From: Crossaster papposus
Lineage: Eukaryota > Echinodermata > Asteroidea > Velatida > Solasteridae
DNA length: 64,000 bases
Reading direction: 5' to 3'
Assembly (NCBI GenBank): GCA_037893245.1
Contig: JBAIAA010000509.1
Location: 1,054,001-1,118,000, forward strand
Notes under the pieces: generated by a model
What the model was told of the DNA's origin: nothing
The model's input: the letters and a program-made list of their open reading frames with translations, nothing else
Database searches by the model: none
Shown here: piece by piece, positions 11,824 through 64,000 of the stretch
Position numbering within the stretch: the stretch's first letter is position 1
Layout of the letters: every line of letters begins with the position of its first letter
Position numbers and translations under genes: made by a program

Positions 11824-11924
11824 CCATGGCATTCTCTTTTGATTCAGTATAAAACTGCTTTAAAAAAGTGATAGTAATTATTTCTATATCTTTGAACAAT
11901 TGAACAATTAAACATTGAACCAAT

Positions 11925-11996
11925 GTAGTGATCGTATAGCGGTTAGACCATTGCGTTGTGGTCGCAATAACCCAGGTTCGAATCCTGGTTATAGCA
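11925..11996 (+). tRNA. tRNA-His(GUG), first array unit, degenerate
   Basis: The anticodon arm and the T arm with its B box are intact. The acceptor stem GTAGTGA/TTATAGC and the D arm (TATAGCGGTTAGACC) are altered, so folding would be impaired. It is followed by spacer B, the only B spacer left of 37 kb. Confidence 0.75.
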
Positions 11997-12079
11997 TTCC
12001 ATTTTGATTTCTTATAATAAAAAGTGCTTTTCAAATTTGATAGTACATGTAATTGTTTTTTCAGCTTTTTCTCTGAACT

Positions 12080-12151
12080 TCTATGGTCGTCTAGTGGTTA
12101 GGACATTGCGTTGTGGTCGCAATAACCCAGGTTCGAATCCTGGTCATGGCA
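12080..12151 (+). tRNA. tRNA-His(GUG), second unit, altered acceptor
   Basis: The D, anticodon and T arms are consensus. The acceptor strand TCTATGG against TCATGGC has a mismatch at the first pair, which matters for tRNA-His identity. Confidence 0.75.
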
Positions 12152-12223
12152 TTCTCTTTTGATTCAGAATAATAGAAACTGTTTTAGGTATTTGATATTA
12201 ATTTCCAGCTCCTTTTTCTAACA

Positions 12224-12295
12224 GCTGTGACCGTCTAGTGGTTAGGACATTGCGTTGTGGTCGCAATAACCCAGGTTCGAATACTGGTCATGGCA
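12224..12295 (+). tRNA. tRNA-His(GUG), third unit
   Basis: Consensus except GTGACC in the acceptor/linker and one T-stem mismatch (CCAGG/ACTGG), which also alters the B box to GGTTCGAATAC. The Helitron begins 11 bp after its end. Confidence 0.8.
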
Positions 12296-12306
12296 TTATC
12301 TTTTGA

Positions 12307-13467
12307 TCTATATAATAATACGCTACTCTCTGTCTGTCTGTCTGTGTGTCTGTCTGTGCGCGCTTTTTCGTCCCCTTCCCGGGGTCGTGCGGCGTTCAAA
12401 CTCGGTGGGTGGGTCCGGCTCGGTCCCCGCAAGAACCAGTTTGCATTCGCTAGAGCGTACGAGGTCAAAGGTCATCTAGGGGTCACCTTTTTGAAGTTAG
12501 TCGCAATGCTCGATGCGAGGTGAGCGTGGCAAAAATAAAACGGGTTAGCGTTTTTCGGGTCTTCCGGGGTCAAAGGTCGTCTAAGGGTCGAATTTTAAAA
12601 GTTTGTCCTATCGGGATAATGGACTGGGAAAAAAATTCTAACCCAGGAGGTCATTCAGGGGGTGAAACATCCCTTCAAAATAATGGTTTGGGCCAAAAAC
12701 CATAGAGTTGTGCAGACAAATCGAAATCTGATCCCTTTGTGTTTAGCCGCTGTCAAAAAAAGTCTCTGACATCTCTTTGAGCGGCCTTGGTAGAGAACAA
12801 ACACAGCTGTTATCAATCGCCACCCAGATATCCCCTGGGGGGTAGTTAGAGCTGTTGGTCGTTGTTATTTGTATCATATGGCTGTTTCATGTCTGTATTG
12901 CGCAATACTGATTTCAATGTTTACATGCTTGCAATGGATGTCCTTAAAAAAATACATAAAATAGCCAGAATGTTTAAATCTTTGATATGTGTGTCCAGGG
13001 TCCTTATATCCATCTGTTGAGACCGTGAGAAAAAGATTTGTACCCCCAAACACAGTTCATTACCCCCAACATTGTCACGGGAAGAAGTCTACAAGCAGTG
13101 CTGATTTCGCTCATATAAGGTAATGCATTGGTTTTTATATCTAAGTTGAATTTAAATAACTTTAATCAAGGGAAAATGGTGTATCAATAATTCAATACAT
13201 TCTTATAACTGTTACAAAATAATGCTCAAAAGGTGGGAAATATTATAAGAAATGTAGGCCTGTGTATCTGTATCATTGCAGCCAATTAAGTTTATGCAAG
13301 GTCAGCAAAATATTTTGTAAATCAATTATTAGTCTGTCAGATGAAGTAATCAGACGAGAGTTGTATTTGGCACCTCCATGATAGAGTCAACATGTATCCA
13401 CAATCCCCATCCATCCAGGGAAGTAGCTACAAACCCGAGAACCGACAAACCCCGGGTGACCGCCTAG
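12307..13467 (+). mobile_element. Non-autonomous Helitron (1,161 bp)
   Basis: It begins TCTATATAATAATACG and ends CTAG, inserted between A and T of a spacer A that otherwise reads CTTTTGA / TTCAGTATAATAG. This is the classic Helitron signature: 5' TC, 3' CTRR, A-T target, no target duplication. About 6 nt before the CTAG lies a small hairpin, ACCCG...CGGGT. A TCTG/TG microsatellite occupies about 12326-12358. There is no Rep/helicase frame. Confidence 0.85.
12326..12358 (+). repeat. (TCTG)n microsatellite
   Basis: About eight imperfect TCTG/TGTG units near the Helitron 5' end. Confidence 0.85.
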
Positions 13468-13701
13468 TTCAGTATAATAGAAACTGTTTTAGGTATTTGA
13501 TATTAATTTCCAGCTACTTTTTCTAACTGCTGTGATCGTCTAGTGGTTAGGACATTGCGTTGTGGTCGCAATAACCCAGGTTCGAATCCTGGCCATGCCA
13601 TTTTCTTTTGATTCAGTATGATAGAAACTGTCTCTTTTGATTCAGTATAATAGAAACTGTTTTAAGTATTTGATATTAATTTCCAGTTCCTTTTTCTAAC
13701 T

Positions 13702-13773
13702 GCTGTGATCGTCTAGTGGTTAGGACATTGCGTTGTAGTGGCAATACCCCAGGTTCGAATCCTGGTCATGGCA
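13702..13773 (+). tRNA. tRNA-His body with anticodon GTA (Tyr)
   Basis: The anticodon loop is TTGTAGT in place of TTGTGGT, giving GUA. The closing pair is G-G (GGCAA), so the stem is weakened. The T arm and acceptor are otherwise consensus. It is unlikely to be a real tRNA-Tyr, since the rest of the molecule is tRNA-His. Confidence 0.75.
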
Positions 13774-13778
13774 TTCTC

Positions 13779-13782
13779 TTTT
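13779..13782 (+). terminator. Pol III terminator TTTT (representative)
   Basis: In standard spacer A the tRNA is followed by TTCTCTTTTGATT, so a T4 run starts 6 nt after the discriminator base. The same position holds T4-T6 in most units and TTTT in spacer B (TTCCATTTTGATTTC). A spacer subfamily reading TTCTTATTTCATTCAG lacks it. Confidence 0.8.
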
Positions 13783-14133
13783 GATTCAGTATAATAGAAA
13801 CTGTTTTAGGTATTTGATAATAATTTTCAGCTACTTTTCCTAACTGCTGCGATCGTCTAGTGGTTAGGACATTGCGTTGTGGTCGCAATAACCCAGGTTC
13901 GAATCCTGGTCATGGCATTCTCTTTTGATTCAGCATAATAGAAAATGTTTTAGGTATTTGATATTAATTTTCAGCTACCTTTCCTAACTGCTGTGATTGT
14001 CTAGTGGTTAGGACATTGCGTTGTGGTCGCAATAAACCAGGTTCGAATCCTGGTCATGGCATTCTTATTTCATTCAGTATAATAGAACCTGTTTTAGGTA
14101 TTTGATATAAATTTTCAGCTACCTTTCCTAACT

Positions 14134-14205
14134 GCTGTGATCGTCTAGTGGTTAGGACATTGCGTTGTGGTCGCAATAACCCAGGTTCGAATCCTGGTCA
14201 TGGCA
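14134..14205 (+). tRNA. tRNA-His(GUG), reference unit
   Basis: Intact example of the consensus, 72 nt. The acceptor stem GCTGTGA pairs with TCATGGC (two G-U wobbles), and the discriminator is A73, as in eukaryotic tRNA-His. D arm: GTCT/GGAC around AGTGGTTA. Anticodon arm: TTGCG/CGCAA around TTGTGGT with anticodon GTG. Variable loop: TAAC. T arm: CCAGG/CCTGG around TTCGAAT. The B box GGTTCGAATCC is perfect, and the A box is TCGTCTAGTGG. There is no intron and no encoded CCA. The G-1 base needed for HisRS would be added by Thg1-type activity. Pol III is the expected polymerase. Confidence 0.96.
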
Positions 14206-15824
14206 TTTTCTTTTGATTCAGTATAATAGAAACTGTCTCTTTTGAATCTGTATAATAGAAACTGTTTTAAGTATTTGATATTAATTTCCAGTTCCTTTTT
14301 CTAACTGCTGTGATCGTCTAGTGGTTAGGACATTGCGTTGTGGTGGCAATACCCCAGGTTCGAATCCTGGTCATGGCATTCTCTTTTGATTCAGTATAAT
14401 ATAAACTGTTTTAGGTATTTGATAATAATTTTCAGCTACTTTTCCTAACTGCTGCGATCGTCTAGTGGTTAGGACATTGCGTTGTGGTCGCAATAACCCA
14501 GGTTCGATTCCTGGTCATGGCATTCTTATTTCATTCAGTATAATAGAACCTGTTTTAGGTATTTGATATAAAATTTCAGCTACATTTCCAAACTGCTGTG
14601 ATCGTCTAGTGGTTAGGACATTGCGTTGTGGTCGCAATAACCCAGGTTCGAATCCTGGTCATGGCATTCTCTTTTGATTCAGTATAATAGAAACTGTTTT
14701 AGGTATTTGATATTAATTTCCAGCTCCATTTTTCTAACAGCTGTGATCGTCTGGTTATGACATTGTGTTGTGGTCGCAATAACCCAGGTTCGAATCCTGG
14801 TCATGGCATTTTCTTTTGATTCAGTATAATAGAACCTGTTTTAGGTATTGGATATTAATTTTCAGCTACTTTTCGTAACTGCTGTGATCGTCTAGTGGTT
14901 AGGACATTGCGTTGTGGTCGCAATAACCCAGGTTCGAATCCTGGTCATTGCATTCTCTTTTGATTCAGTATAATAGAAACTGTTTTAGGTATTTGATATT
15001 AATTTTCAGCTACCTTTCCTAACTGCTGTGATCGTCTAGTGGTTAGGACATTGCGTTGTGGTCGCAATAACCCAGGTTCGAATCCTGGTCATGGCATCCT
15101 CTTTTTTATTCAGTATAATAGAAACTCTTTTAGGTATTTGATATTAATTTCTAGCTCCATTTTTCTAACAGCTGTGATCGTCTAGTGGTTAGGACATTGC
15201 GTTGTGGTCGCAATAACCCAGGTTCGAATCCTGGTCATGGCATTCTCTTTTGATTCAGTATAATAGAAACTGTTTTAGGTATTGATATTAATATTCAGCT
15301 ACATTTCCTAACTGCTGTGATCGTCTCGTGGTTAGGAAATTTCGTTGTGGTCGCAATAACCCAGGTTCGAATCCTGGTCATGGCATCCTCTTTTGATTCT
15401 GTATAATAGAAACTGTTTTAGGTATTTGATATTAATTTTCAACTGCCTTTCCTAACTGCTGTGATCGTCTAGTGGTTAGGACATTGCGTTGTGGTCGCAA
15501 TAACCCAGGTTCGAATCCTGGTCATGGCATCCTCTTTTGATTCAGTATAATAGAAACTGTTTTAGGTATTTGATATTAATTTCCAGCTCCATTTTCTAAC
15601 AGCTGTGATCGTCTAGTGGTTAGGACATTGCGTTGTGGTCGCAATAACCCAGGTTCGAATCCTGGTCATGGCATTCTCTTTTGATTCAGCATAATAGAAA
15701 ATGTTTTAGGTATTTGATATTAATTTTCAGCTACCTTTCCTAACTGCTGTGATCGTCTAGTGGTTAGGAGTTAGGACATTGCGTTGTGGTCGCAATAACC
15801 CAGGTTCGAATCCTGGTCATGGCA

Positions 15825-17445
15825 TTTTCTTTTGATTTAGCATAATAGAACCTGTTTTAGATATTGGATATTAATATTCAGCTACTTTTCCTAACTGCTG
15901 TGATCGTCTAGTGGTTAGGACATTGCGTTGTGGTCGCAATAACCCAGGTTCGAATCCTGGTCATGGCATTCTTATTTCATTCAGTATAATAGAACCTGTT
16001 TTAGGTATTTGATATAAATTTTCAGCTACATTTCCTAACTGCTGTGATCGTCTAGTGGTTAGGACATTGCGTTGTGGTCGCCATAACCCAGGTTCGAATC
16101 CTGGTCATGGCATCCTCTTTTGATTCAGTATAATAGAAACTGTTTTAGGTATTTGATATTAATTTCCAGCTCCATTTTTCTAACAGCTGTGATCGTCTGG
16201 TTATGACATTGTGTTGTGGTCGCAATAACCCAGGTTCGAATCCTGGTCATGGCATTTTCTTTTGATTCAGTATAATAGAACCTGTTTTAGGTATTGGATA
16301 TTAATTTTCAGCTACTTTTCGTAACTGCTGTGATCGTCTAGTGGTTAGGACATTGCGTTGTGGTCGCAATAACCCAGGTTCGAATCCTGGTCATTGCATT
16401 CTCTATTGATTCAGTATAATAGAAACTGTTTTAGGTATTTGATATTAATTTTCAGCTACCTTTCCTAACTGCTGTGATCGTCTAGTGGTTAGGACATTGC
16501 GTTGTGGTCGCAATAACCCAGGTTCGAATCCTGGTCATGGCATCCTCTTTTTTATTCAGTATAATAGAAACTCTTTTAGGTATTTGATATTAATTTCTAG
16601 CTCCATTTTTCTAACAGCTCTGATCGTCTAGTGGTTAGGACATTGCGTTGTGGTCGCAATAACCCAGGTTCGAATCCTGGTCATGGCATTCTCTTTTGAT
16701 TCAGTATAATAGAAACTGTTTTAGGTATTTGATATTAATATTCAGCTACATTTCCTAACTGCTGTGATCGTCTCGTGGTTAGGAAATTTTGTTGTGGTCG
16801 CAATAACCCAAGGTTCGAATCCTGGTCATGGCATCCTCTTTTGATTCAGTATAATAGAAACTGTTTTAGGTATTTGATATTAATTTTCAGCTGCCTTTCC
16901 TAACTGCTGTGATCGTATAGTGGTTAGGACATTGCGTTGTGGTCGCAATAACCCAGGTTCGAATCCTGGTCATGGCATCCTCTTTTGATTCAGTATAATA
17001 GAAACTGTTTTAGGTATTTGATATTAATTTCCAGCTCCATTTTTCTAACAGCTGTGATCGTCTAGTGGTTAGGACATTGCGTTGTGGTCGCAATAACCCA
17101 CGTTCGAATCCTGGTCATGGCATTCTCTTTTGATTCAGCATAATAGAAAATGTTTTAGGTATTTGATATTAATTTTCAGCTACCTTTCCTAACTGCTGTG
17201 ATCGTCTAGTGGTTAGGAGTTAGGACATTGCGTTGTGGTCGCAATAACCCAGGTTCGAATCCTGGTCATGGCATTTTCTTTTGATTTAGCATAATAGAAC
17301 CTGTTTTAGATATTGGATATTAATTTTCAGCTCCTTTTTCTAACAGCTGTGACCGTCTAGTGGTTAGGACATTGCGTTGTGGTCGCAATAACCCAGGTTC
17401 GAATCCTGGTCATGGCATTATCTTTTGATTCAGTATAATAGAAAC
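15825..17445 (+). repeat. Segmental duplication, copy 1 (offset 6,360)
   Basis: About 1.6 kb, 10 units, repeated at 22185-23805 with unit starts displaced by exactly 6,360 bp throughout and matching variant order (D-loop deletion, broken anticodon stem, TATAGTGG variant, D-arm insertion). Confidence 0.85.
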
Positions 17446-19348: not shown

Positions 19349-19421
19349 TCCTCTTTTGATTCAGTATAATAGAAACTGTTTTAGGTATTTGATATTAATT
19401 TCCAGCTCCATTTTTCTAACA

Positions 19422-33145: not shown

Positions 33146-33632
33146 GCTGTGATCGTCTAGTGGTTAGGACATTGCGTTGTGGTCGCAATAACCCTAGCCT
33201 TTAAACAAGGCCACATGTCTGATAGACGCCGAGCGACTAAAAAGAGACTAATCGCGAAAACCTGTGTGAACGCCAGTGCGAATTGCCCAGACAAGTAGCC
33301 TTTAGCAATCTGGTTTGGAATTCGCTACCGAAAAGGTAGAGTCCAATCAGCGAACGTATCTCCGCGTGACGTCAGCTTATATTTGGTATGCAAATTTGAA
33401 CGCTCATATGATCGCCGTTCTGATTGGTCAAAGTAGGCGTATTGGCATGCTAATATGTATCTATGAATAATTCATGCGAGCAGTGAAACCTACATTGCAA
33501 AAGGCCTCGTGACATTCGTCACTGGATCGCGCGTTCACCCCAGGTATCTAGACTCATCTCAGCCGCTTAGCCAGAGTCACGAGGCCTTGTCAAAAGGCTA
33601 CAATAACCCAGGTTCGAATCCTGGTCATGGCA
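33146..33632 (+). pseudogene. tRNA-His unit split by a transposon
   Basis: Bases 33146-33194 give the consensus acceptor, D and anticodon arms up to CAATAACCC. A 406-bp element follows. The tRNA then resumes after the duplicated CAATAACCC (33601-33609) and ends with a consensus T arm and acceptor at 33632. The insertion lies between the anticodon stem and the B box, separating the A and B boxes. Confidence 0.92.
33195..33600. mobile_element. 406-bp TIR element with 9-bp target duplication
   Basis: The ends are TAGCCTTTAAACAAGGCC and, reverse-complemented, TAGCCTTTTGACAAGGCC. It is flanked by perfect 9-bp direct repeats CAATAACCC (33186-33194, 33601-33609). A 9-bp duplication fits Mutator-like or Merlin-type elements better than hAT (8 bp). 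The interior is not tRNA-like, is less AT-rich than the array, and carries no transposase frame. Identical target copies imply a fairly recent insertion. Confidence 0.85.
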
Positions 33633-36930: not shown

Positions 36931-37002
36931 GCTTTGATCGTCTAGTGGTTAGGACATTGCGTTGTCGTCGCAATAACCCAGGTTCGAATCCTGGTCATGG
37001 CA
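36931..37002 (+). tRNA. tRNA-His body with anticodon GTC (Asp)
   Basis: The loop TTGTCGT gives GUC. The anticodon stem, D arm and T arm are consensus, and the acceptor (GCTTTGA) has one mismatch. Confidence 0.75.
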
Positions 37003-39558: not shown

Positions 39559-42380
39559 GCTGTGATCGTCTAGTGGTTAGGACATTGCGTTGTGGTCGCA
39601 ATAACCCAGGTTCGAATCCTGGTCATGGCATTCTCTTTTGATTCAGTATAATAGAACCTGTTTTAGGTATTTGATATTAATTTTCAGCTACTTTTCCTAA
39701 CTGCTGTGATCGTCTAGTGGTTAGGACATTGCGTTGTGGTCGCAATAACCCAGGTTCGAATCCTGGTCATGGCATTCTCTTTTGATTCAGTATAATAGAA
39801 ACTGTTTTAGGTATTTGATATTAATTTCCAACTACTTTTCCTAACTGCTGTAATCGTCTAGTGGTTAGGACATTGCGTTGTGGTCGCAATAACCCAGGTT
39901 TGAATAATGGACATGGCATTCTCTATTGATTCAGTATAATAGAAACTGTTTTAGGTATTTTATATTAATTTTCAGCTACTTTTTCTAACTGCTGTGATCG
40001 TCTAGTGGTTAGGACATTGCGTTGTGTTCGCAATAACCCAGGTTCGAATCCTGGTCATGGCATTCTCTTTTGATTCAGTATAATAGAAACTGTTTTAGGT
40101 ATTTGATATTAATTTCAAGCTCCTTTTTCTAACAGCTGTGATCGTCTAGTGGTTAGGACATTGCGTTGTGGTCGCAATAACCCAGGTTCGAATCCTGGTC
40201 ATGGCATTCTCTTCTGATTCAGTATAATAGAACCTGTTTTAGGTATTTGATATTAATTTTCAGCTACTTTTTCTAACTGCTGTGATCGTCTAGTGGTTAG
40301 GACATTGCGTTGTGGTCGCAATAACCCAGGTTGGAATCCTGGTCATGGCATTCTCTTCTGATTCAGTATAATAGAACCTGTTTTAGATATTTGATATTAA
40401 TTTCCAGCTACTTTTCCTAACTGCTGTGATCGTCTAGTGGTTAGGACATTGCGTTGTGGTCGCAATAACCCAGGTTTGAATAATGGACATAGCATTCCAT
40501 TTTGATTTCTTATAATAAAAAGTGCTTTTCAAATTTGATAGTACATGTAATTATTTTTCAGTTTTTTCTCTCAACTGCTGTTATCGTCTAGTGGTTAGGA
40601 CATTGCGTTGTGGTCGCAATAACCCAGGTTCGAATCCTGGTCATAGCATTCCATTTTGATTTCTTATAATAAAAAGTGCTTTTCAAATTTGATAGTACAT
40701 GTAATTGTTTTTCAGATATTTCTCTCAACTGCTGTGATCGTCTAGTGGTTAGGACATTGCGTTGTGGTTGCAACAACCCAGGTTCGAATCCTGGTCATGG
40801 CATTCTCTTTTGATTCAGTTTAATAGAAACTGTTTTAGGTATTTGATAATAATTTCCAGTTCCATTTTCTAACTGCTGTGATCGTCTAGTGGTTAGGACA
40901 TTGCGTTGTGGTCGCAATAACCCAGGTTCGAATCCTGGTCATGGCATTCTGTTTTGATTCAGTATAATAGAAACTGTTTTAGGTATTTGATATTAATTTC
41001 CAGTTCCATTTTCTAACTGCTGTGATCGTCTAGTGGTTAGGACATTGCGTTGTGGTCGCAATAACCCAGGTTCGAATCCTGGTCATGGCATTCTCTTTTG
41101 ATTCAGTATAATAGAACCTGTTTTAGGTATTTGATATTAATTTTCAGCTACTTTTCCTAACTGCTGTGATCGTCTAGTGGTTAGGACATTGCGTTGTGGT
41201 CGCAATAACCCAGGTTCGAATCCTGGTCATGGCATTCTCTTTTGATTCAGTATAATAGAAACTGTTTTAGGTATTTGATATTAATTTCCAGCTACTTTTC
41301 CTAACTGCTGTGATCGTCTAGTGGTTAGGACATTGCGTTGTGGTCGCAATAACCCATGTTCGAATCCTGGTCGTGGCATTCTCTTTTGATTCAGTATAAT
41401 AGAAACTGTTTTAGGTATTTGATATTAATTTTCAGCTACTTTTCCTAACTGCTGTGATCGTCTAGTGGTTAGGACATTGCGTTGTGGTCGCAATAACCCA
41501 GGTTCGAATCCTGGTCATGGCATTCTATTTTGATTCAGTATAATATAAACTGTTTTAGGTATTTGATAATAATTTCCAGCTCCTTTTTCTAACAGCTGTA
41601 ATCGTCTAGTGGTTAGGACATTGCGTTGTGGTCGCAATAACCCAGGTTCGAGTCCTGGTCATGGCATTCTCTTTTGATTCAGTATAATAGAAACTGTTTT
41701 AGGTATTTGATATTAATTTTCGGCTCCTTTTTCTAACAGCTGTGATCGTCTAGTGGTTAGGACATTGCGTTGTGGTCGCAATAACCCAGGTTCGAATCCT
41801 GGTCATGGCATTCTCTTTTGATTCAGCATAATAGAAAAGGTTTTAGGTATTTGATATTAATTTTCAGCTACCTTTCCTAACTGCTGTGATCGTCTAGTGG
41901 TTAGGACATTGCGTTGTGTTCGCAATAACCCAAGTTCTGGTCATGGCATTCTCTTTTGATTCAGTATAATAGAACCTGTTTTAGGTATTGGATATTAATT
42001 TTCAGCTACTTTTCGTAACTGCTGTGATCGTCTAGCGGTTAGGACATTGCGTTGTGGTCGCAATAACCCAGGTTCGAATCCTGGTCATGGCATTCTCTTT
42101 TGATTCAGTATAATAGAAACTGTTTTAGGTATTTGATATTAATTTTCAGCTCCTTTTTCTAACAGCTGTGATCGTCTAGTGGTTAGGACAGTGCGTTGTG
42201 GTCGCAATAACCCAGGTTCGAATCCTGGTCATGGCATTCTCTTTTGATTCAGTATAATAGAAACTGTTTTAGGTATTTGATATTAATTTCCAGCTGCTTT
42301 TCCTAACTGCTGTGATCGTCTAGTGGTTAGGACATTGCGTTTTGGTCGCAGTAACCCAGGTTTGAATAATGAACATAGCA
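39559..42380 (+). tRNA. 20 tandem tRNA-His units, block 10
   Basis: Starts: 39559, 39703, 39847, 39991, 40135, 40279, 40423, 40577, 40731, 40875, 41019, 41163, 41307, 41451, 41595, 41739, 41883, 42021, 42165, 42309. 39847, 40423 and 42309 have a broken T arm, and 42309 also has anticodon TTG. 41883 has lost the B-box core (AAGTTCTGG). 39991 and 41883 have GTGTTC at the anticodon 3' side (base 37 changed, anticodon still GTG). Confidence 0.9.
42309..42380 (+). pseudogene. tRNA-His-like, anticodon TTG, broken T arm
   Basis: The loop TTTTGGT is combined with TTTGAATAATG in the T arm, which destroys the B box. The same type occurs at 51604, 53346 and 54512. Confidence 0.8.
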
Positions 42381-42832
42381 TTCCATTTTGATTTCTTATA
42401 ATAAAAAGTGCTTTTCAAATTTGATAGTACATGTAATTATTTTTCAGCTTTTTCTCTCAACTGCTGTTATCGTCTAGTGGTTAGGACATTGCGTTGTGGT
42501 CGCAATAACCCAGGTTCGAATCCTGGTCATAGCATTCCATTTTGATTTCTTATAATAAAAAGTGCTTTTCAAATTTGATAGTACATGTAATTGTTTTTCA
42601 GATATTTCTCTCAACTGCTGTGATCGTCTAGTGGTTAGGACATTGCGTTGTGGTCGCAATAACCCAGGTTCGAATCCTGGTCATGGCATTCTCTTTTGAT
42701 TCAGTTTAATAGAAACTGTTTTAGGTATTTGATATTAATTTCCAGCTCCTTTTTCTAACTGCCTTTATCGTCTAGTGTTTAGGACATTGCGTTGTGGTCG
42801 CAATAACCCAGGTTCGAATCCTGGTCATAGCA

Positions 42833-42904
42833 ATACATTTTGATTTCTTATAATAAAAAGTGCTTTAGGTATTTGATATTATTTTTCAACTACTTTTCCT
42901 AACT
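42833..42904 (+). repeat. Chimeric A/B spacer
   Basis: It begins like spacer B (TTTTGATTTCTTATAATAAA, AAGTGCTTT) and then switches to spacer A (AGGTATTTGATATT). The total is 72 bp, so the period returns to 144. The same junction occurs at 52128-52199 and 54738-54809. Confidence 0.85.
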
Positions 42905-43336
42905 TCCATGATCGTCTAGTGGTTAGGACGTTGCGTTGTGGTCGCAATAACCCAGGTTCGAATCCTGGTCATGGCATTCTATTTTGATTCAGTATAATAT
43001 AAACTGTTTTAGGTATTTGATAATAATTTCCAGCTCCTTTTTCTAACAGCTGTGATCGTCTAGTGGTTAGGACATTGCGTTGTGGTCGCAATAACGCAGG
43101 TTCGAGTCCTGGTCATTGCATTCTCTATTGATTAAGTATAATAGAAACTGTTTTAGGTATTTGATATTAATTTTCGGCTCCTTTTTCTAACAGCTGTGAT
43201 CGTCTAGTGGTTAGGACATTGCGTTGTGGTCGCAATAACCCAGGTTCGAATCCTGGTCATGGCATTCTCTTTTGATTCAGTATAATAGAACCTGTTTTAG
43301 GTATTAGATATTGATTTTCAGCTACTTTTCGTAACT

Positions 43337-43408
43337 GCTGTGATCGTCTAGTGGTTATGACATTGCGTTGTCGTCGCAATAACCCAGGTTCGAATCCTGG
43401 TCATGGCA
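43337..43408 (+). tRNA. tRNA-His body with anticodon GTC (Asp)
   Basis: The loop TTGTCGT gives GUC. The acceptor and T arm are consensus, and the D stem is altered to TATGAC. It is duplicated at 52632. Confidence 0.75.
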
Positions 43409-45360
43409 TTCTCTTTAGATTCAGCATAATAGAAAAGCTTTTAGGTATTTAATATTAATTTTCAGCTACTTTTCCTAACTGCCTTGATCGTCTAGTGGTT
43501 AGGACATTGCGGTGTGGTCGCAATAACACAGGTTCGAATCCTGGTCATGGCATTCTCTTTTGATTCAGTATAATAGAAACTGTTTTAGGTATTTGATATT
43601 AATTTCCAGTTCCATTTTCTAACTGCTGTGATCGTCTAGTGGTTAGGACATTGCGTTGTGGTCGCAATAACCCAGGTTCGAATCCTGGTCATGGCATTCT
43701 CTTTTGATTCAGTATAATAGAAACTGTTTTAGGTATTTGATATTAATTTTCAGCTCCTTTTTCTAACTGCTGTGATCGTCTAGAGTTTGGGACATTGCGT
43801 TGTGGTCGCAATAACCCAGGTTCGAATCCTGGTCATGGCATTCTCATTTGATTCAGTATAATAGAAACTGTTTTAGGTATTTGATATTAATTTCCAGCTC
43901 CTTTTTCTAACAGCTGTGCTCGTCTAGTGGTTAGACCTTGCGTTGTGGTCGCAATAACCCAGGTTCGAATCCTGGTCATGGCATTCTCTTTTGATTCAGA
44001 ATAATATAAACTGTTTTAGGTATTTGATATTAATTTTCGGCTCCTTTTTGTAACAGCTGTGATCGTCTAGTGTTTGGGACATTGCGTTGTGGTCGCAATA
44101 ACCCAGGTTCGATTCCTGGTCATGGCATTCTCTTTTGATTCAGTATTAAAGAAACTGTTTTAGGTATTTGATATTAATTTCCAGCTTCTTTTTCTAACAG
44201 CTGTGACCCTCTAGTGGTTAGGACATTGCGTTGTGGTCGCAATAACCCAGGTTCGAATCCTGGTCATGGCATTCTCTTTTGATTCAGTATAATAGAAACT
44301 GTTTTAGGTATTTGATATTAATTTCCAGCTACTTTTCCTGACTGCCTTGATCGTCTAGTGGTTAGGACATTGCGTTGTGGTCGCAACAACACAGGTTCGA
44401 ATCCTGGTCATGGCATTCTCTTTTGATTCAGTATAATAGAAACTGTTTTAAGTATTTGATATTAATTTCCAGCTACTTTTCCTAACTGCTGTGATCGTCT
44501 AGTGGTTAGGACATTGCGTTGTGGTCGCAATAACCCAGGTTCGAGTCCTGGTCATGACATTCTCTTTTGATTCAGTATAATAGAAACTGTTTTAGGTATT
44601 TGATATTAATTTCCAGCTACTTTTCCTAACTGCCTTGATCGTCTAGTGGTTAGGACATTGCGTTGTGGTCGCAATAACACAGGTTCGAATCCTGGTCATG
44701 GCATTCTCTTTTGATTCAGTATAATAGAAACTGTTTTAGGTATTTGATATTAATTTCCAGCTACTTTTCCTAACTGCCTTGATCGTCTAGTGGTTAGGAC
44801 ATTACGTTGTGGTCGCAATAACACAGGTTCGAATCCTGGTCATGGCATTCTCTTTTGATTTAGTATAATAGAAACTGTTTTAAGTATTTGATATTAATTT
44901 CCAGCTACTTCTCCTAACTGCTGTGATCGTCTAGTGGTTAGGACATTGCGTTGTGGTCGCAATAACCCAGGTTCGAATCCAGGTCATGACATTCTCTTTT
45001 GATTCAGTATAATAGAAACTGTTTAGGTATTTGATATTAATTTTCAGCTACTTTTCCTATCTGCTGTGATCGTCTAGTGGTTAAGACATTGCGTTGTGGT
45101 CGCAATAACCCAGGTTTGAATAATGGACATAGCATTCCATTTTGATTTCTTATAATAAAAAGTGCTTTTCAAATTTGATATTACATGTAATTGTTTTTCA
45201 GCTTTTTCTCTCAACTGCTGTGAACGTCTAGTGGTTAGGACATTGCGTTGTGGTCGCAATAACCTAGGTTCGAATCCTGGTCATGGCATTCTCCTTTGAT
45301 TCAGTATAATAGAAACTGTTTTAGGTATTTGATATTAATTTCCAGCTACTTTTCCTAACT

Positions 45361-48267: not shown

Positions 48268-51099
48268 GCTGTGATCGTCTAGTGGTTAGGACATTGCGTT
48301 GTGGTCGCAATAACCCAGGTTCGAATCCTGGTCATGGCATTCTCTTCTGATTCAGTATAATAGAACCTGTTTTAGGTATTTGATATTAATTTTCAGCTAC
48401 TTTTCCTAACTGCTGTGATCGTCTAGTGGTTAGGACATTGCGTTGTGGTGGCAATAACCCAGGTTCGAATCCTGGTCATGGCATTCTCTTTTGATTCAGT
48501 ATAATAGAAACTGTTTTAGGTATTTGATATTAACTTCCAGCTACTTTTCCTAACTGCTTTGATCGTCTAGGGGTTAGGACATTGCGTTGTGGTCGCAATA
48601 ACCCCGGTCCGAATCCTGGTCATAGCATTCCATTTTGATTTCTTATAATAAAAAGTACTTTTCAAATTTGATATTACATGTAATTGTTTTTCAGCTTTTT
48701 CTCTCAACTGCTGTGATCGTCTAGTGGTTAGGACATTGCGTTGTGGTCGCAATAACCCAGGTTCGAATCCTAGTCATGGCATTCTCTTTTGATTCAGTAT
48801 AATAGAAACTGTTTTAGGTATTTGATATTAATTTCCAGCTTCTTTTTCTAACAGCTGTGACCGTCTTGTGGTTAGGACATTGCGTTGTGGTCGCAATAAC
48901 CTAGGTTCGAATCCTGGTCATGGCATTCTGTTTTGATTCAGTATAATAGAAACTGTTTTAGGTATTTGATATTAATTTCCAGCTTCTTTTTCTAACAGCT
49001 GTGACCGTCTTGTGGTTAGGACATTGCGTTGTGGTCGCAATAACCCAGGTTTGAATAATGGACATGGCATTCTCTATTGATTCAGTATAATAGAAACTGT
49101 TTTAGGTATTTTATATTAATTTTCAGCTACTTTTTCTAACTGCTGTGATCGTCTAGTGGTTAGGACATTGCGTTGTGTTCGCAATAACCCAGGTTCGAAT
49201 CCTGGTCATGGCATTCTCTTTTGATTCAGTATAATAGAAACTGTTTTAGGTATTTGATATTAATTTCAAGCTCCTTTTTCTAACAGCTGTGATCGTCTAG
49301 TGGTTAGGACATTGCGTTGTGGTCGCAATAACCCAGGTTCGAATCCTGGTCATGGCATTCTCTTCTGATTCAGTATAATAGAACCTGTTTTAGGTATTTG
49401 ATATTAATTTTCAGCTACTTTTTCTAACTGCTGTGATCGTCTAGTGGTTAGGACATTGCGTTGTGGTCGCAATAACCCAGGTTGGAATCCTGGTCATGGC
49501 ATTCTCTTCTGATTCAGTATAATAGAACCTGTTTTAGGTATTTGATATTAATTTCCAGCTACTTTTCCTAACTGCTGTGATCGTCTAGTGGTTAGGACAT
49601 TGCGTTGTGGTCGCAATAACCCAGGTTTGAATAATGGACATAGCATTCCATTTTGATTTCTTATAATAAAAAGTGCTTTTCAAATTTGATAGTACATGTA
49701 ATTATTTTTCAGTTTTTTCTCTCAACTGCTGTTATCGTCTAGTGGTTAGGACATTGCGTTGTGGTCGCAATAACCCAGGTTCGAATCCTGGTCATAGCAT
49801 TCCATTTTGATTTCTTATAATAAAAAGTGCTTTTCAAATTTGATAGTACATGTAATTGTTTTTCAGATATTTCTCTCAACTGCTGTGATCGTCTAGTGGT
49901 TAGGACATTGCGTTGTGGTTGCAACAACCCAGGTTCGAATCCTGGTCATGGCATTCTCTTTTGATTCAGTTTAATAGAAACTGTTTTAGGTATTTGATAA
50001 TAATTTCCAGTTCCATTTTCTAACTGCTGTGATCGTCTAGTGGTTAGGACATTGCGTTGTGGTCGCAATAACCCAGGTTCGAATCCTGGTCATGGCATTC
50101 TGTTTTGATTCAGTATAATAGAAACTGTTTTAGGTATTTGATATTAATTTCCAGTTCCATTTTCTAACTGCTGTGATCGTCTAGTGGTTAGGACATTGCG
50201 TTGTGGTCGCAATAACCCAGGTTCGAATCCTGGTCATGGCATTCTCTTTTGATTCAGTATAATAGAACCTGTTTTAGGTATTTGATATTAATTTTCAGCT
50301 ACTTTTCCTAACTGCTGTGATCGTCTAGTGGTTAGGACATTGCGTTGTGGTCGCAATAACCCAGGTTCGAATCCTGGTCATGGCATTCTCTTTTGATTCA
50401 GTATAATAGAAACTGGTTTAGGTATTTGATATTAATTTCCAGCTACTTTTCCTAACTGCTGTGATCGTCTAGTGGTTAGGACATTGCGTTGTGGTCGCAA
50501 TAACCCAGGTTCGAATCCTGGTCGTGGCATTCTCTTTTGATTCAGTATAATAGAAACTGTTTTAGGTATTTGATATTAATTTTCAGCTACTTTTCCTAAC
50601 TGCTGTGATCGTCTAGTGGTTAGGACATTGCGTTGTGGTCGCAATAACCCAGGTTCGAATCCTGGTCATGGCATTCTATTTTGATTCAGTATAATATAAA
50701 CTGTTTTAGGTATTTGATAATAATTTCCAGCTCCTTTTTCTAACAGCTGTAATCGTCTAGTGGTTAGGACATTGCATTGTGGTCGCAATAACCCAGGTTC
50801 GAGTCCTGGTCATGGCATTCTCTTTTGATTCAGTATAATAGAAACTGTTTTAGGTATTTGATATTAATTTTCGGCTCCTTTTTCTAACAGCTGTGATCGT
50901 CTAGTGGTTAGGACATTGCGTTGTGGTCGCAATAACCCAGGTTCGAATCCTGGTCATGGCATTCTCTTTTGATTCAGCATAATAGAAAAGGTTTTAGGTA
51001 TTTGATATTAATTTTCAGCTACCTTTCCTAACTGCTGTGATCGTCTAGTGGTTAGGACATTGCGTTGTGGTCGCAATAACCCAAGTTCTGGTCATGGCA
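48268..51099 (+). tRNA. 20 tandem tRNA-His units, block 13
   Basis: Starts: 48268, 48412, 48556, 48710, 48854, 48998, 49142, 49286, 49430, 49574, 49728, 49882, 50026, 50170, 50314, 50458, 50602, 50746, 50890, 51034. 48998 and 49574 have a broken T arm; 51034 lacks the B-box core; 48412 has the closing-pair mismatch; 50746 has TTGCA in the anticodon stem. 48998-51034 repeat 39847-41883 at +9,151 bp. Confidence 0.9.
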
Positions 51100-51603
51100 T
51101 TCTCTTTTGATTCAGTATAATAGAACCTGTTTTAGGTATTGGATATTAATTTTCAGCTACTTTTCGTAACTGCTGTGATCGTCTAGCGGTTAGGACATTG
51201 CGTTGTGGTCGCAATAACCCAGGTTCGAATCCTGGTCATGGCATTCTCTTTTGATTCAGTATAATAGAAACTGTTTTAGGTATTTGATATTAATTTTCAG
51301 CTCCTTTTTCTAACAGCTGTGATCGTCTAGTGGTTAGGACAGTGCGTTGTGGTCGCAATAACACTGGTTCGAATCCTGGTCATGGCATTCTCTTTTGATT
51401 CAGTATAATAGAAACTGTTTTAGGTATTTGATATTAATTTCCAGCTGCTTTTCCTAACTGCTGTGATCGTCTAGTGGTTAGGACATTGCGTTGTGGTCGC
51501 AATAACCCAGGTTCGAATCCTGGTCATGGCATTCTCTTTTGATTCAGTATAATAGAAACTGTTTTAGGTATTTGATATTAATTTCCAGCTGCTTTTCCTA
51601 ACT

Positions 51604-51675
51604 GCTGTGATCGTCTAGTGGTTAGGACATTGCGTTTTGGTCGCAGTAACCCAGGTTTGAATAATGAACATAGCA
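51604..51675 (+). pseudogene. tRNA-His-like, anticodon TTG, broken T arm
   Basis: A copy of the 42309 type (GCAGTAACCC after the stem, AATAATGAACATAGCA end), carried by the duplicated segment. Confidence 0.8.
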
Positions 51676-52127
51676 TTCCATTTTGATTTCTTATAATAAA
51701 AAGTGCTTTTCAAATTTGATAGTACATGTAATTATTTTTCAGCTTTTTCTCTCAACTGCTGTTATCGTCTAGTGGTTAGGACATTGCGTTGTGGTCGCAA
51801 TAACCCAGGTTCGAATCCTGGTCATAGCATTCCATTTTGATTTCTTATAATAAAAAGTGCTTTTCAAATTTGATAGTACATGTAATTGTTTTTCAGATAT
51901 TTCTCTCAACTGCTGTGATCGTCTAGTGGTTAGGACATTGCGTTGTGGTCGCAATAACCCAGGTTCGAATCCTGGTCATGGCATTCTCTTTTGATTCAGT
52001 TTAATAGAAACTGTTTTAGGTATTTGATATTAATTTCCAGCTCCTTTTTCTAACTGCCTTTATCGTCTAGTGTTTAGGACATTGCGTTGTGGTCGCAATA
52101 ACCCAGGTTCGAATCCTGGTCATAGCA

Positions 52128-52199
52128 ATACATTTTGATTTCTTATAATAAAAAGTGCTTTAGGTATTTGATATTATTTTTCAACTACTTTTCCTAACT
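52128..52199 (+). repeat. Chimeric A/B spacer (second copy)
   Basis: Same junction as 42833-42904, inside the +9,295-bp duplicate. Confidence 0.85.
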
Positions 52200-52631
52200 T
52201 CCATGATCGTCTAGTGGTTAGGACGTTGCGTTGTGGTCGCAATAACCCAGGTTCGAATCCTGGTCATGGCATTCTATTTTGATTCAGTATAATATAAACT
52301 GTTTTAGCTATTTGATAATAATTTCCAGCTCCTTTTTCTAACAGCTGTGATCGTCTAGTGGTTAGGACATTGCGTTGTGGTCGCAATAACGCAGGTTCGA
52401 GTCCTGGTCATTGCATTCTCTATTGATTAAGTATAATAGAAACTGTTTTAGGTATTTGATATTAATTTTCGGCTCCTTTTTCTAACAGCTGTGATCGTCT
52501 AGTGGTTAGGACATTGCGTTGTGGTCGCAATAACCCAGGTTCGAATCCTGGTCATGGCATTCTCTTTTGATTCAGTATAATAGAACCTGTTTTAGGTATT
52601 AGATATTGATTTTCAGCTACTTTTCGTAACT

Positions 52632-52703
52632 GCTGTGATCGTCTAGTGGTTATGACATTGCGTTGTCGTCGCAATAACCCAGGTTCGAATCCTGGTCATG
52701 GCA
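52632..52703 (+). tRNA. tRNA-His body with anticodon GTC (Asp), duplicate
   Basis: Same sequence type as 43337 (TATGAC D stem, TTGTCGT loop), copied with the +9,295-bp segment. Confidence 0.75.
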
Positions 52704-53345
52704 TTCTCTTTAGATTCAGCATAATAGAAAAGCTTTTAGGTATTTGATATTAATTTTCAGCTACCTTTCCTAACTGCTGTGATCGTCTAGTGGTTAGGAC
52801 ATTGCGTTGTGGTCGCAATAACCCAGGTTCTGTTCATGGTATTCTCTTTTGATTCAGTATAATAGAACCTGTTTTAGGTATTGGATATTAATTTTCAGCT
52901 ACTTTTCGTAACTGCTGTGATCGTCTAGCGGTTAGGACATTGCGTTGTGGTCGCAATAACCCAGGTTCGAATCCTGGTCATGGCATTCTCTTTTGATTCA
53001 GTATAATAGAAACTGTTTTAGGTATTTGATATTAATTTTCAGCTCCTTTTTCTAACAGCTGTGATCGTCTAGTGGTTAGGACAGTGCGTTGTGGTCGCAA
53101 TAACACTGGTTCGAATCCTGGTCATGGCATTCTCTTTTGATTCAGTATAATAGAAACTGTTTTAGGTATTTGATATTAATTTCCAGCTGCTTTTCCTAAC
53201 TGCTGTGATCGTCTAGTGGTTAGGACATTGCGTTGTGGTCGCAATAACCCGGGTTCGAATCCTGGTCATGGCATTCTCTTTTGATTCAGTATAATAGAAA
53301 CTGTTTTAGGTATTTGATATTAATTTCCAGCTGCTTTTCCTAACT

Positions 53346-54511: not shown

Positions 54512-54583
54512 GCTGTGATCGTCTAGTGGTTAGGACATTGCGTTTTGGTCGCAATAACCCAGGTTTGAATAATGGACATAGCA
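54512..54583 (+). pseudogene. tRNA-His-like, anticodon TTG, broken T arm
   Basis: Fourth member of this type, again directly before a spacer B. Confidence 0.8.
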
Positions 54584-54737
54584 TTCCATTTTGATTTCTT
54601 ATAATAAAAAGTGCTTTTCAAATTTGATAGTACATGTAATTATTTTTCAGCTTTTTCTCTCAACTGCTGTTATCGTCTAGTGGTTAGGACATTGCGTTGT
54701 GGTCGCAATAACCCAGGTTCGAATCCTGGTCATAGCA

Positions 54738-54809
54738 TTCCATTTTGATTTCTTATAATAAAAAGTGCTTTAGGTATTTGATATTAATTTTCAACTACTT
54801 TTCCTAACT
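54738..54809 (+). repeat. Chimeric A/B spacer (third copy)
   Basis: Same breakpoint after AAGTGCTTTAGG. It follows tRNA 54666, in a context not shared with the first two copies. Confidence 0.85.
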
Positions 54810-56406: not shown

Positions 56407-56478
56407 GCTGTGAGCGTCTGGTGGTTAGGACATTGCGTTGGGGTCGCAATAACCCAGGTTCGAATCCTGGTCATAGCA
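56407..56478 (+). tRNA. tRNA-His body with anticodon GGG (Pro)
   Basis: The loop TTGGGGT gives GGG. The stems are otherwise intact, the acceptor ends TCATAGCA, and the unit is embedded between two B spacers. Position 8 is G (GTGAGCG). Confidence 0.7.
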
Positions 56479-56848
56479 TTCTATTTTGATTTCTTATAAT
56501 AAAAAGTGCTTTTCAAATTTGATAGTACATGTAATTGTTTTTCAGCTTTTTCTCTCAACTGCTGTGAGCGTCTAGTGGTTAGGACATTGCGTTGTGGTCG
56601 CAATAACCCAGGTTCGAGTCCTGGTCATGGCATTCTTTTTTGATTCAGTATAATAGAAACTGTTTTAGGTATTTGATATTAATTTTCAGCTACTTTTCCT
56701 AACTGCTGTGATCGTCTAGTGGTTAGCACATTGGGTTGTGGTCGCAATAACCCTGGTTCGAGTCCTGGTCATGGCATTCTTTTTTGATTCAGTATAATAG
56801 AAACTGTTTTAGGTATTTGATATTAATTTTCAGCTACTTTTCCTAACT

Positions 56849-59850: not shown

Positions 59851-59922
59851 TTCTCTTTTGATTCAGTATAATAGAACCTGTTTTAGGTATTTGATATTTA
59901 TTTTCAGCTACATTTCCTAACT

Positions 59923-62773
59923 GCTGTGATCGTCTAGTGGTTAGGACATTGCGTTGTGGTCGCAATAACCCAGGTTCGAATCCTGGTCATGGCATTCTCT
60001 TTTGATTGAGAATAATAGAAACTGTTTTAGGTATTTGATATTAATTTTCAGCTACTTTTCCTAACTGCTGTGATCGTCTAGTGGTTAGCACATTGCGTTG
60101 TGGTCGCAATAACCCAGGTTCGAATCCTTGTAATGGCATTCTCTTTTGATTCAGTATAATAGAAACTGTTTTAGGTATTTGATATTAATTTCTAGCTACT
60201 TTTCCTGTCTGCCTTGATCATCTAGTGGTTAGGACATTGCGTTGTGGTCGCAAAAACCCAGGTTCGAATCCCGGTCATGGCATTCTCTTTTGATTCAGTA
60301 TAATATAAACTGTTTTAGGTATTTGATATTAATTTCCAGTTTCTTTTTTCTAACTGCTGTGAGCGTCTAGTGGTTAGGACATTGCGTTGTGGTCGCAAAA
60401 ACCCAGATTCGAATCCTGGTCATGGCATTCTCTTTTGATTCAGTATAATATAAACTGTTTTAGGTATTTGATATTAATTTCCAGTTTCTTTTTTCTAACT
60501 GCTGTGAGCGTCTAGTGGTTAGGACATTGCGTTGTGGTCGCAATAACCCTGGTTCGAATCCTGGTCATGGCATTCTCTTTTGATTCAGTATAATATAAAC
60601 TGTTTTAGGTATTTGATATTAATTTCCAGTTCCTTTTTTCTAACTGCTGTGATCGTCTAGTGGTTAGGACATTGCGTTGTGGTCGCAATAACCCAGGTTC
60701 GAATTCTGGTCATGGCATTCTATTTTGATTCAGTATAATATAAACTGTTTTAGGTATTTGATATTAATTTCCAGTTCCTTTTTCTAACTGCTGTGAGCGT
60801 CTAGTGGTTAGGACATTGCGTTGTGGTCGCAATAATCCAGGTTCGAATCCTGGTCATAGCATTCCATTTTGATTTCTTATAATAAAAAGTGCTTTTCAAA
60901 TTTGATAGTACATGTAATTGATTTTTAGCTTTTTCTCTCAATTGGTGTGATCGTCTAGTGGTTAGGGCATTGCGTTGTGGTCGCAATAACCCAGGTTCGA
61001 ATCCTGGTCATGGCATTCTCTTTTGATTCAGTATAATAGAAACTGTTTTAGGTATTTGATATTAATTTTCAGCTACTTTTCCTAACTGCTGTGATCGTCT
61101 AGTGGTTAGCACATTGCGTTGTGGTCGCAATAACCCAGGTTGGAATCCTGGTTATAGCATTCCATTTTGATTTCTTATAATAAAAAGTGCTTTTCAAATT
61201 TGATAGTACATGTAATTGTTTTTCAGCTTTTTCTACCAACTGCTGTGATCGTCTAGTGGTTAAGACATTGCGTTGTGGTCGCAATAACCCAGGTTCGAAT
61301 CCTGGTCATGGCATTCTCTTTTGATTCAGTATAATAGAACCTGTTTTAGGTATTTGATATTAATTTTCAGCTACATTTCCTAACTGCTGTGATCGTCTAG
61401 TGGTTAGGACATTGCGTTGTGGTCGCAATAACCCAGGTTCGAATCCTGGTCATGGCATCCTATTTTGATTCAGTATAATATAAACTGTTTTAGGTATTTG
61501 ATATTAATTTTCAGCTACTTTTCCTGTCTGCCTTGATCATCTAGTGGTTAGGACATTGCGTTGTGGTCGCAATAACCCAGTTTCGAATCCTGGTCATGGC
61601 ATTCTCTTTTGATTCAGTATAATAGAAACTGTTTTAGGTATTTGATATTAATTTTCAGCTACTTTTCCGAACTGCTGTGATCGTCTAGTGGTTAGCCCAT
61701 TGCGTTGTAGTCGCAATAACCCAGGTTCGAATCCTGGTTATAGCATTCCATTTTGATTTCTTATAATAAAAAGTGCTTTTCAAATTTGATAGTACATGTA
61801 ATTGATTTTCAGCATTTTCTCTCAACTGCTGTGATCGTCTAGTGGTTAGGACATTGCGTTGTGGTCGCAATAACCCAGGTTCCAGTCCTGGTCATGGCAT
61901 TCTTTTTTGATTCAGTATAATAGAAACTGTTTTAGGTATTTGATATTAATTTCCAGCTCCTTTTTCTAACTGCTGTGATCGTCTAGTGGTTAGGACATTG
62001 CGTTGTGGTCGCAATAACCCAGGTTCGAATCCTGGTCATGGCATTCTCTTTTGATTCAGTATAATAGAACCTGTTTTAGGTATTTGATATTAATTTTCAG
62101 CTACATTTCCTAACTGCTGTGATCGTCTCGTGGTTAGGACATTGCGTTGTGGTCGCAATAACCCAGGTTCGAATCCTGGTCATGGCATTCTCTTTTGATT
62201 CAGTATAATAGAACCTGTTTTAGGTATTTGATATTAATTTTCAGCTACATTTCCTAACTGCTGTGATCGTCTAGTGGTTAGGACATTGCGTTGTGGTCGC
62301 AATAACCCAGGTTCGAATCCTGGTCATGGCATTCTATTTTGATTCAGTATAATATAAACTGTTTTAGGTATTTGATATTAATTTCCAGTTCCTTTTTCTA
62401 ACAGCTGTGAGCGTCTAGTGGTTAGGACATTGCGTTGTGGTCGCAATAACCCAGGTTCGAATCCTGGTCATAGCGTTCTATTTTGATTTCTTATAATAAA
62501 AAGTGCTTTTCAAATTTGATAGTACATGTAATTGTTTTTCAGCTTTATCTCTCAACTGCTGTGAGCGTCTGGTGGTTAGGACATTGCGTTGTGGTCGCAA
62601 TAACCCTGGTTCGAGTCCTGGTCATGGCATTCTTTTTTGATTCAGTATAATAGAAACTGTTTTAGGTATTTGATATTAATTTTCAGCTACATTTCCTAAC
62701 TGCTGTGATCGTCTCGTGGTTAGGACATTGCGTTGTGGTCGCAATAACCCAGGTTCGAATCCTGGTCATGGCA
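59923..62773 (+). tRNA. 20 tandem tRNA-His units, block 17
   Basis: Starts: 59923, 60067, 60211, 60356, 60501, 60646, 60790, 60944, 61088, 61242, 61386, 61530, 61674, 61828, 61972, 62116, 62260, 62404, 62558, 62702. 60211 and 61530 have GCCTTGATCATC. 60944 has GGTGTGA in the acceptor. 62116 and 62702 have CTCGTGG in the D loop. All retain anticodon GTG. Confidence 0.9.
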
Positions 62774-62845
62774 TTCTATTTTGATTCAGTATAATATAAA
62801 CTGTTTTAGGTATTTGATATTAATTTCCAGTTCCTTTTTCTAACT

Positions 62846-63935
62846 GCTGTGATCGTCTAGTGGTTAGGACATTCCGTTGTGGTCGCAATAACCCAGGTTC
62901 GAATCCTGGTCATGGCATTCTATTTTGATTCAGAATAATATAAACTGTTTTAGGTATTTGATATTAATTTTCAGCTACTTTTCCTAACTGCTGTGATCGT
63001 CTAGTGGTTAGGACATTGCGTTGTGGTCGCAATAACCCAGGTTCGAATCCTGGTCATGGCATTCTATTTTGATTCAGTATAATATAAACTGTTTTAGGTA
63101 TTTGATATTAATTTTCAGCTACATTTCCTAACTGCTGTGATCGTCTAGTGGTTAGGACATTGCGTTGTGGTCGCAATAACCCAGGTTCGAATCCTGGTCA
63201 TGGCATTCTATTTTGATTCAGTATAATATAAACTGTTTTAGGTATTTGATATTAATTTCCAGTTCCTTTTTCTAACTGCTGTGATCGTCTAGTGGTTAGG
63301 ACATTGCGTTGTGGTCGCAATAACCCAGGTTCGAATCCTGGTCATGGCATTCTTTTTTGATTCAGAATAATAGAAACTGTTTTAGGTATTTGATATTAAT
63401 TTTCAGCTACTTTTCCTAACTGCTGTGATCGTCTAGTGGTTAGCACATTGGGTTGTGGTCGCAATAACCCAGGTTCGAATCCTAGTCATAGCAGTCCATT
63501 TTGGATTCTTATAATAAAAAGTGCTTTTCAAATTTGATAGTACATGTAATTGTTTTTCATCTTTTTCTCTCAACTGCTGTGATCGTCTAGTGGTTAGGAC
63601 ATTGCGTTGTGGTCGCAATAACCCTGGTTCGAGTCCTGGTCATGGCATTCTTTTTTGATTCAGTATAATAGAAACTGTTTTAGGTATTTGATATTAATTT
63701 CCAGCTCCTTTTTCTAACTGCTGTGATCGTCCAGTGGTTAGGACATTGCCTTGTGGTCGCAATAACCCAGGTTCGAATCCTGGTCATGGCATTCTCTTTT
63801 GATTCAGTATAATAGAACCTGTTTTAGGTATTTGATATTTATTTTCAGCTACATTTCCTAACTGCTGTGATCGTCTAGTGGTTAGGACATTGCGTTGTGG
63901 TCGCAATAACCCAGGTTCGAATCCTGGTCATGGCA
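62846..63935 (+). tRNA. 8 tandem tRNA-His units, block 18
   Basis: Starts: 62846, 62990, 63134, 63278, 63422, 63576, 63720, 63864. This is a copy of 58031-59049 at +4,815 bp. 62846 has a TTCCG stem mismatch, 63422 the GCACATTGGG variant, and 63720 CCAGTGG plus TTGCC. Spacer sequence continues to the window end, so the array is not closed on the right. Confidence 0.9.
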
Positions 63936-64000
63936 TTCTCTTTTGATTGAGTATAATAGAACCTGTTTTAGGTATTTGATATTAATTTCAAGCTCCTTTT

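Follow-up and report, generated by a model that had tools for sequence, protein, structure and literature searches.

A 344-unit tandem array of tRNA-His(GUG) genes in Crossaster papposus: a probable tRNA-gene satellite

Known tandem arrays of tRNA genes

Tandem arrays of tRNA genes are already known. In Hydractinia, non-coding RNA genes, among them tRNAs for every amino acid, form tandem arrays whose copy numbers range from tens to hundreds (PMC11067881), and zebrafish chromosome 4, with 5,227 predicted tRNA genes, is likewise a very large animal cluster (PMC11574265). The locus considered here lies in a window of 64,000 nucleotides (the whole stretch of DNA that was analysed) from the echinoderm Crossaster papposus (assembly GCA_037893245.1, contig JBAIAA010000509.1, positions 1,054,001 to 1,118,000, forward strand), in which 344 units of a tRNA-His(GUG) gene and its spacer follow one another on one strand. 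The array adds to the known kind a new member that is unusually long and compact and is based on a single isoacceptor, and it is probably a tRNA-gene satellite that grew from one or more tRNA-His genes that once worked. A literature search, with most subscription journals outside its reach, did not find a tRNA-His array of comparable size.

The spacers of the Hydractinia arrays are given as hundreds to thousands of nucleotides (PMC11067881), whereas those in C. papposus mostly measure 72-82 nt, and zebrafish clusters are described as consisting mostly of heterogeneous neighbours (PMC2888827), in contrast to the one isoacceptor here. Clusters of fifty and more tRNA genes are reported for Nematostella and teleosts (PMC2888827), and CpG methylation of the tRNA genes on zebrafish chromosome 4 is reported as near-complete (PMC11574265). 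The Ser-Tyr-Tyr cluster of Arabidopsis resembles the present array in being tandem, in mixing intact and pseudogene copies and in having a core that arose by tandem duplication, but it belongs to a plant, involves two amino acids with 54 clustered tRNA-Tyr genes, and has been shown to be active in a tissue-specific manner (PMC12308677). The human variable number tandem repeat at 1q23.3 also holds tRNA genes, although its unit is 7.3 kb long, is present in 9-43 copies and binds CTCF (PMC4041453). Newt PolIII/TAN and Xenopus OAX are, according to PMC10702118, tandem repeat families with a tRNA-derived segment; the unit of the former is about 360 nt long, that of the latter is called too long for a proper satellite, and the segment in both is described as tRNA-like and not as an intact tRNA gene. 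Entamoeba keeps tRNA genes in tandem arrays as well, but with up to 5 tRNA genes per unit, short tandem repeats between them and almost all of its tRNA genes so arranged (PMC2652664). The 1,019 tRNA-Ser copies of the flat oyster are described as dispersed (PMC9679248).

If the assembly is right, one isoacceptor is present in at least 115 canonical copies at a single locus, and tRNA gene counts in a genome of this sort may therefore say little about tRNA supply. Hundreds of tRNA and spacer copies lying side by side also make relaxed selection, homogenisation and mutation in a gene transcribed by RNA polymerase III (Pol III) directly measurable.

Extent and copy number of the array

A BLAST search of the window with the array's own tRNA consensus as query gave 345 matches at E<=1, every one on the + strand, and 338 of these extend over 61 nt or more of the query. 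The leftmost match begins at 11928, which places the gene start at 11925 by extrapolation. The matches at 33146 and 33601 are two halves of one unit around a 406-bp insert, and the number of units is therefore 344, as had been predicted from the sequence along with their single strand, their head-to-tail order and the departure of the array from the window. The last unit is cut by the right end of the window, past which the array extends, and the span is about 50.6 kb by span arithmetic once two inserts are subtracted. Twenty mononucleotide-shuffled windows together yielded 19 matches at E<=1 of any length, or about one each. ARAGORN, run with bacterial settings, called 328 tRNA genes in the window, 307 of them His and the others undetermined (11), Gln (3), Asp (3), Tyr (2), Lys (1) or Pro (1), and Rfam returned 329 matches at or above the gathering score, all of them RF00005 on the + strand among the 150 matches listed. 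In its layout the locus thus qualifies as a tandem tRNA gene array, with tRNA genes of similar spacer arranged head to tail on one strand.

Unit length has a median of 144 bp. A spacing of 144-154 bp had been proposed, and it describes the most frequent intervals (144 bp in 207 of 344, 154 bp in 35 and 145 bp in 31) but not the range, which is 130-200 bp away from the inserts. At the left edge, 11825-11879 aligns to array spacers at 81-83% identity among the 20 matches listed. Coordinates of the array, its zones and the neighbouring features are collected in Table 1.

Table 1. Features of the 64,000-nucleotide window
Feature	Position	Strand	Evidence or remark
PDZ exon	1643-1918	-	Best PDB hits KIAA1526 (E 2e-6) and harmonin (E 1.5e-5); Pfam PDZ E 8e-4, just below cut-off
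Exon resembling harmonin N-terminal domain	2984-3334	-	PDB harmonin E 0.0012; Pfam USH1C_N E 0.049, below cut-off
tRNA-His(GUG) tandem array, 344 units	11824-64000	+	BLAST, ARAGORN, Rfam
Truncated unit at left edge (last bases of the tRNA, then diverged spacer)	11824-11924	+	Spacer match, sequence read
Outermost complete unit, diverged, B-class (154-bp type) spacer	11925-12079	+	Unit listing, class assignment
Helitron-like insert, 1161 bp, in the spacer of unit 3	12307-13467		TC...CTAG ends, between A and T
Class-A zone without B-class units; ARAGORN-called 69-nt and 79-nt D-arm variants	13529-37074	+	
Terminal-inverted-repeat insert, 406 bp (TAGCCTTT...AAAGGCTA), inside a tRNA	33195-33600		
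Mixed zone, class A interspersed with 37 of the 38 B-class units	37075-64000	+	
27-unit block	39847-43768, paired with 48998-53057	+	Copies about 9.15 kb apart; 1.26 differences per unit on average; one unit indel

Anatomy and integrity of the units

Units were compared in an aligned set of 342, from which the insert-bearing units at 12224 and 33146 (>210 bp) and the half-unit at 33561 were excluded; tallies over 343 units, as well as the comparisons of blocks, haplotype copies and lags, still include this half-unit. The typical unit is a complete tRNA followed by a spacer, whose length is 72 nt in 244 of 343 units and 82 nt in 35. The tRNA consensus is predicted to fold into a full cloverleaf (-23.6 kcal/mol; energy z-score of -1.9 against shuffles), with standard pairing at all 21 stem pairs. 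The sequence CCA follows the discriminator in none of 343 units, from which it follows that the unit arose from a gene, flanks included, and not from a mature tRNA; an origin as a retrocopy of mature tRNA was rejected on this ground.

Integrity was scored by five criteria, namely the standard length of 72 nt (301 of 342 units), the GUG anticodon (328), all stems without any broken pair (179), a perfect B box (303) and the discriminator A73 (340). All five hold in 154 of the 342 units and at least one fails in the remaining 188. If five conserved residues are added, 139 units qualify, and 115 of the 342 also have a T4 run within 25 nt, a feature that 289 units possess when it is considered by itself. 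Among departures from the standard length, the tRNA region measures 69 nt in 16 units and 79 nt in 12. The shorter variant is predicted to keep a cloverleaf in which the D stem has 3 pairs (-20.7 kcal/mol), and the best predicted fold of the longer one is not a cloverleaf.

The view that one isoacceptor makes up the array holds for the 328 units with GTG and fails for 14 of the 342, which carry Gln, Asp, Tyr, Lys or Pro anticodons. Over 343 units the non-GTG anticodons are TTG and GTC (5 each), GTA (2), TTT, GGG and AAG (1 each), the AAG belonging by its sequence to the half-unit at 33561. ARAGORN calls that consist of a tRNA-His body with an Asp, Gln, Tyr, Lys or Pro anticodon start at 36931, 43336, 52631, 34453, 53345, 54511, 13701, 61673, 46374 and 56406; such tRNAs could misread codons, if expressed. 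Within 13529-37074, 29-bp duplications (TCTTTTGATTCAGTATAATAGAAACTGTC) stretch some spacers; 18 of 343 thereby measure 101-102 nt, and a single one reaches 131 nt.

Spacer classes and the spectrum of variants

The aligned units fall into two spacer classes, A with 304 units and B, with the 154-bp type of spacer, with 38. Class B comprises the outermost unit on the left and 37 units right of 37 kb. Units of the two classes differ on average at 31% of aligned spacer sites and 7.6% of tRNA sites, and their consensus sequences differ at 19 of 72 aligned spacer positions and 1 of 72 tRNA positions. The spacers thus diverged while the tRNA consensus stayed nearly fixed, and the tRNA was therefore constrained, or selectively homogenised, during that time.

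Variation within class A has another shape. Common variants (>5% of units) number 5 in the tRNA and 25 in the spacer, those at 1-5% number 28 and 24, and rare ones (<=1%) number 74 and 41 (Fisher test of rare against common, p=3e-6). Stems are broken by 54 of the 107 distinct class-A tRNA variants, where 51.5 would be expected from the mutation spectrum of the spacer (p=0.63) and 50.5 from a flat one, and by 10 of the 17 variants found in more than 5 units, where the expectation is 8.2. In class B, 2 of 38 units are intact.

Among rare non-CpG variants, with the half-unit excluded, 62 fall in the tRNA and 41 in the spacer (p=0.01; base-stratified z=2.2). The leader has 8 rare variants in 9 sites, on par with the tRNA body, and the transcribed trailer has 4 in 9. 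The mutation excess of the tRNA body is treated as weak because the leader is equally high and the transcribed trailer is not. A stronger excess (72 in 64 tRNA sites against 41 in 72 spacer sites, base-stratified z=3.1) was set aside; it included the half-unit at 33561, in which a transposon supplies the first 40 nt.

The acceptor stem of the class-A consensus contains U3:G70 and G4:U69, and G-T occurs at 4:69 in 314 of 343 units. A G4-U69 pair is reported to permit mischarging of tRNA-Thr by animal alanyl-tRNA synthetase, and the same source argues that a tRNA-His carrying it would be inert owing to the added G-1 (PMC7302879). Mistranslation through this pair was dropped as a candidate on the strength of that argument.

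Growth by block duplication

Besides the 27-unit block of Table 1, there are 17 runs, each 6-17 units long, that reappear 8 to 125 units away, the differences amounting to 3 per unit or fewer. Neighbouring units are no closer to each other than remote ones, with 19.1 differences at lag 1 and 19.4 at lag 100. Since multi-unit runs recur and neighbours are no more alike than distant units, the array expanded through unequal exchange or block duplication that involved many units at once and not by slippage of single units. There are 234 distinct unit haplotypes among the 342 aligned units, and several defective ones have been multiplied, one to 7 copies, a B-class one to 6 and another to 4; the units with a 69-nt or 79-nt tRNA region are further cases of such copying.

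Two features by which a satellite is recognised are thus present. The monomers are homogenised and have grown by unequal exchange or block duplication, and they have been amplified regardless of function, stems being broken at the rate expected by chance and defective haplotypes being copied. The original prediction had named a tRNA-gene satellite among several possibilities, and the multi-unit block duplications, the amplified defective units and the two spacer classes support it.

Origin and present state of the array

The most probable reading is that the array is a tRNA-gene satellite which grew from one or more tRNA-His genes that once worked. It would have started from one or more ordinary tRNA-His(GUG) genes, complete with leader, trailer and T-run, that came to be copied head to tail in an animal genome, and it would then have grown by unequal exchange or block duplication, with several to dozens of units added per event. 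To judge from the near-fixed tRNA consensus beside diverged spacers, the founder genes would have been functional. Single units now appear to be nearly neutral and nearly dispensable. By analogy with zebrafish chromosome 4, silencing or weak expression is probable for most of the array, and usable tRNA-His could still come from some of the 115 fully canonical units.

Several observations weigh against a satellite of this kind. As many as 154 of the 342 units are still clean, and selection may weakly slow the spread of tRNA variants. The contrast between rare and common variants in class A can also be read as selection checking the spread of tRNA variants, or as gene conversion limited to the tRNA part. 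The pattern is not uniform, since diversity in class B is higher in the tRNA (0.083) than in the spacer (0.066). Amplification regardless of function also sits uneasily with the fact that intact haplotypes are repeated more often on average than defective ones (mean copies of 1.77 and 1.28, respectively; p=2e-4). This excess could mean weak selection; alternatively, it may reflect age, since older, ancestral haplotypes should be intact as well as repeated. Finally, the amplified 69-nt variant may not be dead, because its predicted fold keeps the cloverleaf.

The strongest rival to a satellite, though an unlikely one, is a dosage or reserve device that supplies extra tRNA-His for a histidine-rich product in some tissue or stage, with selection acting on total output. 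A device of this sort had been suggested for the array, and the 115 canonical units (of 139 canonical when the T4 run is left aside) are by themselves many genes. There is also a precedent in the Arabidopsis cluster, which is reported to be kept silenced in most tissues but to be active in root-cap cells, and which PMC12308677 likens to the tandem tRNA-Ala genes of the Bombyx silk gland. The suggestion finds no support, however, in unit integrity: 154 of 342 units pass the integrity test, class-A variants show no bias against stem breaking, even those present in more than 5 units, and B units, 2 of 38 of them intact, were multiplied nonetheless. In early zebrafish embryos, moreover, tRNA levels are reported not to track gene copy number (PMC11574265). 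A narrower version, in which the array is a regulated tRNA-His reserve, mostly silent but activated as one block in a cell type whose demand for histidine is extreme, with selection on the number of working units, is quite improbable. If it were true, the slight surplus of rare tRNA-body variants over those of the spacer would be a mark of germ-line Pol III transcription, and the array would serve as a natural experiment in mutation accumulation, each unit bringing its own untranscribed control.

It is distinctly improbable, too, that the length of the array is an assembly artefact, with the assembler having inflated a shorter array or placed two haplotypes in series. The two copies of the 27-unit block differ at a level that allelic copies might show, and this pair may be an allelic duplicate in the assembly. 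The 234 distinct unit sequences and the two transposon inserts nevertheless speak against simple assembler stutter, and duplicated runs at many different lags and a B-class content that differs between zones also count against an artefact.

It is very unlikely that the unit goes back to a retroposon with a tRNA head and not to a tRNA gene. Squamate satellites are reported to arise from tRNA-headed short interspersed nuclear elements (SINEs), with some units of 143-151 nt (PMC10702118), and 2,342 of 2,368 tRNA-Gln-like loci in Schistosoma mansoni are reported to be SINEs, so that high tRNA counts can mislead (PMC2770079). The C. papposus unit, however, usually consists of a complete tRNA and a spacer of 72 or 82 nt, a T4 run begins 5 nt past the gene in 229 of 343 units, and CCA is absent. 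No SINE body, tail or region derived from long interspersed nuclear elements (LINEs) was seen by eye in 23 units, although no search was aimed at LINE-like sequence. Helenus and Ajax, which are long terminal repeat (LTR) elements, are described as containing tRNA-like parts (PMC10886601); no LTR-element layout was seen in the array, although no search was aimed at such elements.

Least probable, to the point of being highly improbable, is that the array is kept for its TFIIIC sites and not for its tRNA, as a boundary in chromatin, a hub for Pol III or a barrier to replication; the first two roles had been named in the original prediction. The perfect B box of 303 of the 342 units and a CTCF-binding human tRNA tandem repeat proposed as a boundary (PMC4041453) could be cited in favour, but the B box overlaps the T arm and may be kept no better than the rest of the gene, and the right side of the array lies beyond the window. 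Two foreign sources were also tried and rejected: an exact 40-nt spacer pattern gave 0 matches in a viral contig collection, and an exact 62-nt tRNA pattern gave 0 matches in a collection of prokaryote genome contigs.

Inserts and left flank

The name given to the Helitron-like insert rests on the end rules of Helitrons. Its joined flanks give back spacer sequence, and a TCTG microsatellite lies near its 5' end. The terminal-inverted-repeat insert is flanked by a 9-bp target duplication, CAATAACCC.

The ratio of observed to expected CpG is 0.78 in the array from 13529 onward and 0.74 in the left flank. An open frame of 137 amino acids on the - strand of this flank (8779-9192) has no Pfam matches at E<=0.1. 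About 8.5 kb from the array edge lie the two harmonin-like exons, with the N-terminal domain first and then PDZ, the order of a harmonin-type animal gene; these exons support an animal origin of the DNA. The window starts with 69 copies of a 10-bp satellite (GATCGAGGAG/GATGGAGGAG) at 1-685, directly followed by about 4.7 copies of TTAGGG at 683-710, and this site is perhaps subtelomeric or interstitial telomeric.

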